Source of the DNA: an uncultured Alphaproteobacteria bacterium
Lineage (GTDB): Bacteria > Pseudomonadota > Alphaproteobacteria > Pelagibacterales > Pelagibacteraceae
Length of the DNA: 38,854 nucleotides
NCBI GenBank assembly: GCA_903869725.1
Contig: CAIQAD010000015.1
Location: 1-38,854 of the forward strand
Direction: 5' to 3'
Shown piece after piece: positions 31,248-35,404 of the stretch. Numbering within the stretch: the stretch's first letter is position 1; each line of letters starts with the position of its first letter. Made by a program: the position numbers and the translations under genes. The notes beneath the pieces were generated by a model, which ran no database searches, had not been told where the DNA came from, and was given only the letters and a program-made list of their open reading frames with translations.

Positions 31248-32191
31248 TATTTGATGAAAAATTTATTGATTTATTTGTCAATACAACAAGTGAAGCTGCT
31301 TACGCCTCTTCTTTACTAAAAGGTAAAGGTAATAAAATTGCAGCAGATCAAGCAGCTGTAGATAAAATGCGTTTTCATTTAAATAAGATCCCTATGAAAG
31401 GAAGAATTGTCATCGGTGAAGGAGAAATGGATGAAGCTCCAATGTTATATATTGGAGAGATTTTAGGAACAGGAGGCGGAGATGAAGTTGATATTGCAGT
31501 TGACCCTTTAGAAGGCACTAATTTAACTGCTAAAAATTTGCCCAACGCATTATCGGTTCTGGCCGTCTCTAAAAAAGATAATTTATTAAATGCTCCAGAT
31601 ACTTATATGGATAAAATTGCTGTAGGTAAAAATGTTCCAAAAGGTGTTATCGATCTTGATAATTCAGTTAAGAAAAATATTTTAAACTTGGCAGACCATA
31701 AAAAAACTTCTCCCACTAAACTAACCGCTTGTCTTCTTGAAAGAGAACGTCACAATAATATTATTGCCGATCTAAAAGCTTTGGGAGTAAAAATTAAATT
31801 TATATCTGATGGTGATGTAACAGGAGCAATTTATGCTGGCTTGCCTGAATTTAATGTCGATATTTATCTTGGAATAGGTGGAGCTCCAGAAGGTGTTCTT
31901 GCTGCCGCAGCATTAAAATGTCTTGGAGGACAATTTCAAGCAAGATTAATTCTGAATAATGAAGATGAAATTAAAAAAGCAAAAAAGTTAGGTATTAAAG
32001 ATCTAAATAGAAAATATGATACCGACGATTTAGTCAAAGATGATGTATTTTTCTGCGCAAGTGGTGTTACTGATGGAGATTTAGTCAAAGGTATTAAAAT
32101 TTTAGATAATACTTATTACGAAGCTCAAACTTTAGTTCTTCATTACAATTCTAAAATGAATAAAAAAGTTACTAATAAATATTCCCTATGA
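31244..32191 (+). CDS. glpX: Fructose-1,6-bisphosphatase, class II
   Basis: Dephosphorylates fructose 1,6-bisphosphate in gluconeogenesis. The 315 residues have DKMRFHLNKIPMKGRIVIGEGEMDEAPMLY in part, the metal-binding DIAVDPLEGTNLTA, FISDGDVTGAIYA, and GIGGAPEGVLAAAALKCLGG. VFFCASGVTDGDLVKGI lies near the end. It overlaps hom and recJ by four bases on each side (ATGA). The hom-glpX-recJ order is conserved in Alphaproteobacteria; a functional reason is not obvious. Confidence 0.95.
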   Translation: MIFDEKFIDLFVNTTSEAAYASSLLKGKGNKIAADQAAVDKMRFHLNKIPMKGRIVIGEGEMDEAPMLYIGEILGTGGGDEVDIAVDPLEGTNLTAKNLPNALSVLAVSKKDNLLNAPDTYMDKIAVGKNVPKGVIDLDNSVKKNILNLADHKKTSPTKLTACLLERERHNNIIADLKALGVKIKFISDGDVTGAIYAGLPEFNVDIYLGIGGAPEGVLAAAALKCLGGQFQARLILNNEDEIKKAKKLGIKDLNRKYDTDDLVKDDVFFCASGVTDGDLVKGIKILDNTYYEAQTLVLHYNSKMNKKVTNKYSL

Positions 32192-33939
32192 GCTACCAGT
32201 CAGTTACTGGTAAAAATTGGGCGTTAAATGAATTTAATTCTAATGAAGTTTTAGAGTACTCACAAAAAAAAGGGTTTAGTTCTCTTTTATCTAAACTTTT
32301 ATCAATTAGAAAAATTACTATTGATAAATCAGATTTATTCTTGGATCCTAAAATAAAAGATTTTTTACCTAATCCTAATGTTTTAAAAGATATGGAATTA
32401 GCTTCTAATCTTTTAATTAATGCAATTTTAAATAAAAAAAAAATTTGTGTGTTTGGAGATTACGACGTTGATGGTGCATCTGCGACTGCAATAATAATTA
32501 ATTTTTTGAAAAATTTTTACGACAATTATATAATTTATATTCCTGATAGAATAACAGAAGGGTATGGACCAACTCTTGAAGCTTTTAAGAAAATTATAAA
32601 TGACGGCATAAATTTTATTATAACTGTTGATTGTGGTACTACATCTTTTGAGGCAATTGATTATGCCTACAATAACAATACTGAGGTAATTATTCTAGAT
32701 CATCATCAGGCAGATATTAGTATTCCAAAATGTAAAGCATTAGTTAATCCTAAACAAATTAATGACAGTTCTAATTTAAACTATTTATGTGCTGCTGGAG
32801 TTGCCTTTTTATTTATTGTTTCAACAAATAAAATATTGCGAGAAAAAAAATATTATACTGAGAATAATATTAAAGAACCTGAGCTTTTAGATTTTTTAGA
32901 TCTAGTCGCTTTAGGGACGGTTTGTGATGTAGTTCCTTTGTTGCAACTTAATAGAGCTTTAGTTTATCAAGGTCTTAAAATTCTAAAAAAAAGAAAAAAT
33001 ATAGGTATAAAAACCCTATTTGACCTCTTAAATGTTAGTGAAGCACCAAATGCTTATCAATTAGGGTTCGTTATTGGACCTAGAATTAATGCAGGGGGCA
33101 GGATTGGAAAATCAAACCTTGGATCATTGCTACTTACAACTGAAGATGCAAAAACCGCTTACCAAATCGCAAATCAATTAAATGAATTAAATGTAAAAAG
33201 AAAATCTATAGAGGAAAATATTCTAAAAGAGGCTTTTGCACTTGCTGAAACAGAGAAAAATAATGATGTAATTATAGTATCTAGTAAATTATGGCACGAA
33301 GGATTGATTGGTATTATAGCTAGCAGAATAAAAGAAAAGTATTCAAAACCAACAATCGTAATTACTGAAACCAATATAATTGCAAAAGGATCTTGCAGAT
33401 CCATTGTAGGTTTTGATATCGGATTAAACATAGTTCTTGCCAAACAAAATAATCTAATTTTAAAAGGAGGTGGCCACGTTATGGCAGCAGGTTTTAGTAT
33501 TAATAAAAATAAAATATCTGAATTTAAAAATTTTATTTTTCAATCTTACTCAAAAACCAAAAAAAATATAAATATTAATCTAGACATGAATATTGATGAA
33601 ATTATAACCGCAAACTCTGTTAATGAAAAAACTTTTGAAGAAATTGATAAACTAGCCCCCTTTGGGTCTGGTAATCCTGAACCAAGATTTATGATAGAAA
33701 ACTTAACGCCTTTAAAAATAAATTTTGAAAATGAAAACTTAATAAAATATTTATTTAAAGATAATTCAAATATTTATCTAACCGCTTTGTGTTTTAAAAA
33801 TAATAAAGAAAATATTATTGATTATTTAAAAAATTTAAAAAATAATAAATTTAATATTATTGGGAGAATAAATAAGAATGTTTGGAATAAACAAAAAACG
33901 TTTGAATTTTTAATTGATGATTTGTGTTTAGTAAGTTAA
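32188..33939 (+). CDS. recJ: Single-stranded-DNA-specific exonuclease RecJ
   Basis: 5'-3' exonuclease in recombination and mismatch repair. The 583-residue protein has the DHH-family motifs: FGDYDVDGASATAI (motif I), FIITVDCGTTSFEAI (II), and VIILDHHQAD (III). ALGTVCDVVPL (IV) follows. The DHHA1 domain shows GFVIGPRINAGGRIG, SSKLWHEGLIGIIASRIKEKY and GGGHVMAAGFSI. The C-terminal OB-fold begins near IDKLAPFGSGNPEPRF. Length and motif order are normal. Confidence 0.96.
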   Translation: MSYQSVTGKNWALNEFNSNEVLEYSQKKGFSSLLSKLLSIRKITIDKSDLFLDPKIKDFLPNPNVLKDMELASNLLINAILNKKKICVFGDYDVDGASATAIIINFLKNFYDNYIIYIPDRITEGYGPTLEAFKKIINDGINFIITVDCGTTSFEAIDYAYNNNTEVIILDHHQADISIPKCKALVNPKQINDSSNLNYLCAAGVAFLFIVSTNKILREKKYYTENNIKEPELLDFLDLVALGTVCDVVPLLQLNRALVYQGLKILKKRKNIGIKTLFDLLNVSEAPNAYQLGFVIGPRINAGGRIGKSNLGSLLLTTEDAKTAYQIANQLNELNVKRKSIEENILKEAFALAETEKNNDVIIVSSKLWHEGLIGIIASRIKEKYSKPTIVITETNIIAKGSCRSIVGFDIGLNIVLAKQNNLILKGGGHVMAAGFSINKNKISEFKNFIFQSYSKTKKNININLDMNIDEIITANSVNEKTFEEIDKLAPFGSGNPEPRFMIENLTPLKINFENENLIKYLFKDNSNIYLTALCFKNNKENIIDYLKNLKNNKFNIIGRINKNVWNKQKTFEFLIDDLCLVS

Positions 33940-34071: not shown

Positions 34072-34464
34072 TTAAAAAGATTTTATAAAAGCATTAAATG
34101 GCATTAATATACAGTCTTTTCTATTTATATATTTTTGATTTTTGAATATTGAAAATTTTTTCCATTCTATAGATGTTTTTAGAATTTTATTATTAAAATC
34201 ATGAATAAAAATTCTCGAAAAATTTTTTATTTTTTGAATACTTTTATTAGTTATGTGGTGACAGAAAAACATTGTAGAAACCTGACAAATTAAACAAGAT
34301 TCGCACTCAAAAGTGACATTAGCTAATATTTTTTTTTTAATTTGTAAGTATAAAGTTATTTTATCGCCACAAATATTGTTTTTATGAGTAATTTTCTTTG
34401 TGTAATTTTTTATTTTTCCATAATTCTCTAAATTACCAGCAAGACTTAGTAATCTTTTATCCAT
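34072..34464 (-). CDS. NifU/SufU-like iron-sulfur cluster scaffold protein (divergent)
   Basis: The 130-residue, Lys/Ile/Asn-rich protein resembles the NifU N-terminal (IscU/SufU) scaffold family. It has ICGDKITLYLQI (Cys32 and Asp34, as in the CGD motif), then FECESCLICQVSTM (Cys57 at the position of the conserved GxGC). RKDCILMPFNAFI follows (Cys118, as in the SufU R-x-x-C-x-x-x-P/W ending). All three ligand cysteines and the Asp are thus kept. The surroundings are unusual: Cys54, Cys60 and Cys68 are extra, and the family's glycines around Cys57 are replaced. No cysteine desulfurase or suf gene is adjacent. Function as a scaffold is inference from these motifs; the overall similarity to canonical members is low. 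Confidence 0.68.
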   Translation of the reverse strand: MDKRLLSLAGNLENYGKIKNYTKKITHKNNICGDKITLYLQIKKKILANVTFECESCLICQVSTMFFCHHITNKSIQKIKNFSRIFIHDFNNKILKTSIEWKKFSIFKNQKYINRKDCILMPFNAFIKSF

Positions 34465-34659: not shown

Positions 34660-34736
<77 letters not shown>

Positions 34737-34912: not shown

Positions 34913-35404
34913 ATGAAAAAAATTGGTTTATACCCAGGTTCATTTGATCCTATAACTTTTGGACACATTGATATTATAAAAAGGGCATCCAAAATTGTAG
35001 ATAAATTATTTATTGGCGTTCCTTTAATAAACAAAAAAAAAACTATTTTTACTATAACTGAAAGAGTGAATTTAATTAAAGCAGTAGTTAATGATTTTAA
35101 TCCCGATTTAAAAAAAAGAATTGAAGTAGTATCTTTTGGAGGATTAACCACAAATTACTGCAAAAAAATATCAGCAACAGTTATTTTTAGAGGTCTAAGA
35201 GTTGCTTCAGACTTTGAATATGAATTTCAATTAGCTGGTATGAACTATAAATTAAATAGTAATCTAGAGACTGTTTTTTTGATGGCCGAAATACAAAACC
35301 AGATTATTTCTTCAAATTTTGTAAAAGAAATTGCAAGTTTAAAAGGAGATTTAGTGCAATTTGTTCCAAATGTTGTTATTAAAGCTCTGAAAAAGAAATT
35401 TTAA
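34913..35404 (+). CDS. coaD: Phosphopantetheine adenylyltransferase
   Basis: Transfers AMP from ATP to 4'-phosphopantetheine, the penultimate step of CoA synthesis. The 163 residues begin GLYPGSFDPITFGHIDII with the nucleotidyltransferase T-x-G-H motif. ATVIFRGLRVASDFEYEFQLAGMN and a C-terminal part with ISSNFVKEIASLKGD (ISS-x-x-x-R/K-like) follow. Length is standard. It is followed by the cyclophilin gene after three bases and then tgt, an order seen in other Alphaproteobacteria. Confidence 0.96.
   Translation: MKKIGLYPGSFDPITFGHIDIIKRASKIVDKLFIGVPLINKKKTIFTITERVNLIKAVVNDFNPDLKKRIEVVSFGGLTTNYCKKISATVIFRGLRVASDFEYEFQLAGMNYKLNSNLETVFLMAEIQNQIISSNFVKEIASLKGDLVQFVPNVVIKALKKKF

Follow-up and report, generated by a model that had tools for sequence, protein, structure and literature searches.

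The window, a stretch of 38,854 nucleotides from what is probably a marine bacterium with a tiny genome, contains a short gene for a NifU/SufU-like protein. The original prediction was that this gene stands alone between two tRNA genes, without a desulfurase, and the surroundings are as it described (Table 1): the tRNAs are tRNA-Glu and tRNA-Pro, and inspection of the window ORF list by eye showed no desulfurase gene beside it. The question raised by the locus is what such a protein does outside a SUF operon, and whether it is a working protein at all or a scaffold in decay.

Table 1 Features of the window at and around the NifU/SufU-like gene (copy A)
Feature	Position	Strand	Basis or remark
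NifU_N/SufU-like gene, 130 aa from ATG, CxxC subfamily, copy A of the genus	34072..34464	-	ORF list, Pfam, predicted fold, orthologues
tRNA-Glu(ttc), convergent with copy A; 1 base from copy A stop codon	33996..34070	+	
tRNA-Pro(tgg), divergent from copy A	34660..34736	+	
recJ, conserved neighbour of copy A, beyond tRNA	32188..33939	+	
coaD-like gene, conserved neighbour of copy A, beyond tRNA	34913..35404	+	
C32 codon, first ligand	34369..34371	-	Cys in 55/55 family orphans
D34 codon, ligand Asp of CGD motif	34363..34365	-	Sequence and alignment
C54 codon, variable	34303..34305	-	Thr in other 7 copies A; Cys in 31/47 other orphans
C57 codon, second ligand	34294..34296	-	Sequence and alignment
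C60 codon, extra Cys, family trait (C57-x-x-C60)	34285..34287	-	Ser in 12/12 SufU controls
C68 codon	34261..34263	-	Cys in window protein only, among 55 family orphans
C118 codon, third ligand	34111..34113	-	Sequence and alignment

Results and discussion

The sequence of the protein was compared with Pfam, which gave NifU_N (PF01592) at 34.0 bits (gathering score 22, E 3.8e-8); all eight members of alignment A2 match the same family at E <= 0.01. A further Pfam match, to MCP_C (20 bits, cut-off 27), was taken as chance. When the PDB was searched with phmmer, SufU and NifU entries were matched with E-values down to 4.6e-8. The protein reached 59 bits with the SufU model TIGR01994 (NCBIfam), below its cut-off of 92.5, whereas the SufU of the SUF operon in the same genome scored 145.3 bits; with the IscU model TIGR01999 it scored 13.6 bits, far below the cut-off of 192.4.

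An AlphaFold model built from a 59-row alignment (mean pLDDT 90.7, pTM 0.87) overlaid on Bacillus subtilis SufU 6jzv_A with a TM score of 0.84. Against SufU crystal structures the predicted model gave Z scores of 15.4-18.2 over 125-130 residues (18.2 for 6a6f_A, 18.1 for 6jzv_A), and against most IscU crystal entries, which share the fold mostly over a shorter stretch, 12.0-14.5 over 105-112 residues. The titles and types of the entries do not follow the scores throughout: a Thermus entry titled IscU (2qq4) is, with Z 18.1, as good a match as SufU, whereas for the B. subtilis protein the NMR model (1xjs) gave a Z of only 12.3. The segment between the second and third Cys that is found in SufU and absent from IscU is present in the predicted window model. 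The prediction of a NifU/SufU-like protein was thus borne out by the Pfam score, the PDB matches and the predicted fold. These, with eight copies of equal length in the genus, rule out a chance ORF: since every one of the eight, that of the window and the seven orthologues, is open and encodes 130 aa, copy A is a gene. It is a SufU-like paralogue.

The window protein has Cys at positions 32, 54, 57, 60, 68 and 118, within which C32-G-D34 and the core C54ESC57LIC60 are exactly as first described. These positions were examined in an alignment of 55 orphans of the family, 35 CxxC proteins collected at class level, outside the family, and 12 SufU proteins of the CAIS type as controls. Six rows were dropped from it, four of SUF type and two distant; a contig scan for P0001 had given only two distant Patescibacteria/Paceibacterota loci, which were used in the first tree below and dropped here. 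All three sets keep C32, G33, D34, C57 and C118 without exception, so that the Cys, Asp, Cys, Cys ligands of SufU are found in the window protein as C32, D34, C57 and C118. At the place of C60 there is Cys in all eight copies A and in 45 of the 47 other family orphans (53/55 in total; Thr in L042 and L049) and Ser in every SufU control, the class-level CxxC set being defined by this motif, so that C60 is present in it by definition, and including one SUF-operon protein, L164. C54 is Cys in one of the eight copies A, that of the window, and in none of the 35 class-level CxxC proteins (other orphans in Table 1). C68 is Cys in the same single copy A, in none of the 47 other orphans and in one of the 35. 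The expectation that the extra cysteines would be conserved therefore held for C60 and failed for C54 and C68. In these alignments C60 is the only extra cysteine that is a family trait, and with the loosened Gly described below it is a trait of the subfamily; C68 is a local feature, and C54 is frequent in the family, copies A excepted. As neither is conserved among the orthologues, a function for C54 and C68 in copy A is not supported.

The predicted loss of the normal Gly was confirmed for the residue beside the core Cys, which is S56 in the window and Gly in 12/12 SufU-type controls; the family mostly has Ser here, and the class-level CxxC set is divided between Ala (17), Gly (17) and Ser (1). 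Immediately before the third Cys, IscU has His and SufU has Lys (PMC10216065, in part). The window protein has D117 at this place, and Lys occurs here in 12/12 SufU controls but in 0/55 orphans. We define a CxxC SufU-like subfamily in this analysis by CGD, C57-x-x-C60, the third Cys and a Pro four residues later, all of which the window protein has, Pro122 being fixed in the orphans. It shares C-x-x-C, CGD, R-x-x-C-x-x-x-P and a similar length with the class-level CxxC proteins encoded beside genes for XdhC, a MobA-like fusion or CoxE and a SufS-like protein, and differs in having Lys116 where most of these (25/35) have His.

The genome assembly (1.08 Mb, 55 contigs, 96.8% completeness) contains three NifU_N genes. 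One, near C23:42120-42590 (L057:8121-8591), lies in a SUF operon that encodes SufU, SufS, FeS_assembly_P (SufT-like), Fe-S_biosyn and SufBD proteins; a second SufBD protein is encoded on contig C45 near another class-V aminotransferase match, one of seven in the genome, and a search of the window genome found no SufE. The genome thus has its own scaffold in a SUF operon with SufU and SufS, a point that the original prediction had proposed to check, and copy A is ruled out as the main scaffold. Copy A is a paralogue of this SUF-operon SufU; it lies outside the SUF operon and, unlike SufU, is not adjacent to sufS. The SufS of the window genome has a His 19 residues before its catalytic Cys, which agrees with SufS of B. 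subtilis. We take this to be the place of the zinc-swapping His of SufU-dependent SufS (B. subtilis numbering), so that a partner of the SufU kind is also encoded.

The remaining NifU_N gene, copy B (C23:11449-11847 in G000), is a second orphan. It lies between divergent MobA-like/MoeA genes and fdhD, which is followed by genes for a NuoF-like protein and a molybdopterin-oxidoreductase subunit, interpreted as formate dehydrogenase. Both copies belong to the CxxC subfamily and have all ligands, but they are only 30% identical, and copy B adjoins molybdenum-cofactor sulfuration genes whereas copy A does not: its neighbours in the window are the tRNAs, recJ and the coaD-like gene. One clade for copies A and B of the genus was weakly rejected (p-AU 0.032), and with it the idea that copy A arose recently by duplication of the fdhD-linked copy. 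Joining copy A with three genes of genus g5 that are linked to gpx, a glutathione-peroxidase gene, was allowed (p 0.346), but is not thereby shown.

Copy A is present in eight of 13 genomes of the genus. In all seven other carriers it is followed directly by gpx, with 94 bp between the match edges; in the window this neighbour has been lost and gpx survives on contig C11, where it adjoins an Nramp metal transporter gene (L106:1495-3536). The wider loci read in G005, G037 and G085 show the same tRNA-Glu/tRNA-Pro frame, and in G005 (by Pfam) and G037 (by eye) there is also an FAA-hydrolase gene. In the first tree, rooted towards SUF-type proteins, the window protein was placed beside the remaining orphans (95/79), apart from the other seven copies A. 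In the second, in which class-level CxxC rows were used instead, it grouped with six orthologues (98/83). The case for orthology is therefore built on synteny, on highest identity and on the second of these trees.

Selection on copy A was examined in all pairs. There are no indels among the eight genes, and dN is less than dS in every pair, from 0.04/0.56 for G028-G076 (ratio about 0.07) to dN 0.41-0.44 and dS 0.92-1.84 for the window against the other copies (ratio 0.23-0.46). Copy A is under purifying selection. It is also the fastest-diverging of six genes compared at its locus: the window and G005 proteins are 46% identical for copy A and 63-80% for RecJ, CoaD and three proteins named by eye, GlpX, PPIase and Tgt; the corresponding figure for copy B is 74%.

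The genomic contexts of the relatives were then collected. The 121 orphan matches of the family were hand-picked among the matches listed, with SUF-type rows left out and the weakest matches outside the listing; 34 precede fdhD, 32 gpx and 13 sufE, and since 42 lack all of these partners, the family cannot be accounted for by one client. Almost all fdhD genes of the family (34/36) have an adjacent NifU-like gene. The gpx and sufE rows left out of the orphan count were also checked and none is near a NifU-like gene, gpx being common in the family without one. The 13 listed sufE-linked orphans lie just upstream of sufE and outside the SUF operon in genera g7, g9 and g12; at the four loci read the NifU-like gene overlaps the start of sufE (L042:7141-7921, L044:6365-7169, L049:6388-7171 and L051:6279-7089; SufE identity checked with Pfam for L042 and L049). 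At three fdhD loci a gene for a TM_HPP membrane protein lies between the NifU-like gene and fdhD (L040:7200-7673, L067:7733-8242 and L073:6850-7329; checked with Pfam for L040 only).

All 25 listed orphans of genus g5 are followed by gpx. A search of 147 family genomes gave FdhD in 36 and MoeA in 54, with no match to either in any g5 genome, so that, within the reach of these searches, the form linked to gpx in g5 operates where molybdenum cofactor genes are missing. MoeA was matched in five of the eight copy-A genomes and FdhD in four. Given the g5 genomes, molybdenum sulfuration as the job of copy A itself is not supported.

At class level 60 loci were read. The first 20 were chosen after a prior look, with SufU- and YidD-type rows left out, and the other 40 were taken by rank, some rows being skipped, without a prior look at the motif; neighbours were labelled by phmmer with reference proteins, some being checked with Pfam. 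Sorted by the core motif, the 60 loci comprise 35 CxxC, 12 CAIS, 10 CGS/CALG and three others, and the 40 taken by rank 16, 12, 10 and two. The contexts divide in the same way. XdhC or a MobA-like fusion is found within 4 kb at 28/35 CxxC loci (12/16 of those taken by rank) and at none of the CAIS (0/12), CGS/CALG (0/10) or other loci (0/3). SufT/SufA-like genes are adjacent at 11/12 CAIS loci, at 1/35 CxxC loci (L164, a SUF operon) and at no CGS/CALG (0/10) or other (0/3) locus. YidD is adjacent at 9/10 CGS/CALG loci and at no CxxC (0/35), CAIS (0/12) or other (0/3) locus. As the SUF-operon SufU-like protein at L164:4930-5370 has the core CSLC, CxxC is not exclusive to the molybdenum-linked group, and the window gene, for its part, does not lie in a molybdenum-enzyme maturation cluster as most class-level CxxC genes do.

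A SufS-like neighbour was recorded at 17 of the 35 CxxC loci by a distance filter that misses overlapping ORFs, and 20 desulfurases were seen at these loci. The His 19 residues before the catalytic Cys is present in all 11 desulfurases from CxxC loci that were aligned, and by motif in that of L164. At L114:7464-11466, and likewise at L112, L120 and L125, a compact cluster has the order CoxE, XdhC_N, XdhC_C, MobA-like fusion, SufS-like and CxxC NifU-like; from its gene content it looks like a complete cassette for sulfuration of the molybdenum cofactor, desulfurase and carrier included.

A PDB match had suggested that the window gene might be an orthologue of the Brucella NifU-like protein 5uft, of the YidD-linked type. 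The fold is the same as that of the window model (Z 16.1), but that type has a CALG core and CGS (once CGE), with the third Cys missing in the three proteins read fully, whereas the window protein has CLIC and CGD; as motif and context both differ, orthology was ruled out. NifU_N proteins with CGS for CGD and a CALG core were seen, mostly beside yidD, at L095, L098, L104, L129, L137, L148, L153 and L155, those lacking the third Cys being L095, L098 and L104. Judged by its motifs, this subfamily looks like a non-metal-binding relative.

The reading that we prefer, at a probability of roughly 0.5, is that copy A is a SufU-fold persulfide carrier fed by SufS. The SufU of Mycobacterium tuberculosis, a zinc-binding protein that requires the metal, engages SufS through an exchange of ligands and accepts the persulfide on the conserved Cys40 (PMC10216065, in part). 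The same source gives the equivalent of C32 as the persulfide-accepting Cys in both B. subtilis and M. tuberculosis SufU, reports that a different Cys had been put forward as the sulfur site in Enterococcus faecalis SufU, and describes the role of the zinc-swapping His in SufU-dependent SufS. By analogy, a metal, probably zinc, held by C32, D34, C57 and C118 would dock copy A on the SufS encoded on contig C23, and C32 would take the persulfide by ligand swapping. The C57-x-x-C60 pair, which is absent in SufU, might then keep the sulfur or pass it on, or protect the site by a reversible disulfide. In favour of such a carrier are the purifying selection, the fold predicted for the protein, its ligand residues and conserved C60, and the presence in the genome of a SufS that has the zinc-swapping His; the metal, the persulfide transfer and the role of C60 in copy A are inferred. 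The score below the SufU cut-off, the absence of Lys in front of the third Cys and the fast divergence of copy A speak against it.

With respect to the client, the relatives point by their neighbours to molybdenum-cofactor sulfuration (XdhC and the MobA-like fusion in the class, fdhD in the family). The step served by copy A is most likely another one, perhaps linked to peroxide or thiols, since it travels with gpx and the gpx-linked genes of g5 are in genomes in which no moeA or fdhD was found. The idea of a new role in the original prediction is compatible with these contexts.

Several other readings were weighed against a persulfide carrier. Copy A could be an Fe-S scaffold or carrier for particular Fe-S enzymes, with C60 as an alternative fourth ligand: it keeps the three Cys and the Asp, its predicted fold is that of IscU and SufU, the structural matches include an M. 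tuberculosis structure titled '[2Fe-2S] SufU' (9dcl), and the enzymes encoded near its relatives at fdhD and XdhC loci (formate dehydrogenase and molybdenum hydroxylases) contain Fe-S clusters. Against this, position 117 carries Asp, unlike IscU with its His or SufU with its Lys, the neighbours are more often sulfuration factors (FdhD, XdhC, SufE, SufS-like) than Fe-S factors, and the SufT/SufA-like genes adjoin nearly all CAIS-type SufU and, among CxxC loci, only L164. We regard an Fe-S role as unlikely, with perhaps one chance in a few, and a SufU-type sulfur carrier appears from these comparisons to fit copy A better.

The constant company of gpx in the other carriers and in g5 invites the further idea that the two genes form a thiol-redox or peroxide unit, in which the CxxC protein reduces a thiol system, is oxidised by it or supplies it with sulfur. 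Both genes are found in the same eight of 13 genomes and neither is above the cut-off in the other five (G059 has a Gpx match of 20.6 bits, below it), and both persist in the window genome though apart. This co-occurrence is weak evidence, however, since the genes are adjacent in seven of the eight genomes, so that their losses are mostly not independent, and completeness is only 73-78% in four of the five genomes without copy A; gpx is also common in the family without a NifU-like neighbour, and its product may be outside the cytosol, since its start resembles, by eye, a signal peptide. Such a unit seems improbable. Least credible is a decaying duplicate, a relic without its own function, as in the degenerate scaffold once envisaged. 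Its fast divergence relative to five neighbours, its absence from the matches in five genus genomes and the loss of its gpx neighbour in the window could all be read in this way, but eight open copies of equal length without indels, invariant ligand residues and dN below dS in every pair largely refute it.

How far the carrier idea extends to the relatives was considered in the light of published work. In Rhodobacter capsulatus, NifS4 is partnered by SufE and feeds the molybdenum cofactor of xanthine dehydrogenase (2018 study, PMC6239281, in part), and in that study NifS2, NifS3 and NifS4 are stimulated by neither FdhD nor FdsC. FdhD may need no carrier, since E. coli FdhD binds IscS directly (PMC6239281, in part) and the five FdhD proteins of the family that were read all keep the CGVC motif. 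In a word search NifU and SufU are absent from two recent papers on formate-dehydrogenase maturation (PMC12140954, PMC13197769), and a literature search found no paper linking the CxxC SufU-like subfamily to molybdenum-enzyme maturation, a weak absence as subscription papers lay mostly outside its scope and some papers that it listed may mention the link. Judged by their gene neighbourhoods, the CxxC proteins sit where a carrier for molybdenum sulfuration could act.

Conclusions

A broader and more tentative proposal, which we hold to be possible at somewhat worse than even odds, is that the CxxC SufU-like subfamily would be dedicated to relaying sulfur from desulfurases of the SufU type to XdhC and FdhD, the chaperones by which molybdenum enzymes are sulfurated. 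In this streamlined lineage a second copy would have left that pathway and become paired with a peroxidase, and it would now stand alone in the species of the window, a carrier moving between clients.

The analysis bears on the route by which sulfur reaches the cofactors of formate dehydrogenase and xanthine-dehydrogenase-like enzymes in bacteria with a desulfurase of the SufU-dependent kind. The split of motif with context (CxxC with XdhC or the MobA-like fusion, 28/35; CAIS with SufT/SufA, 11/12; CGS with YidD, 9/10) gives a candidate gene for such sulfur delivery, and the window gene is a side branch of this story of sulfur delivery to molybdenum enzymes.
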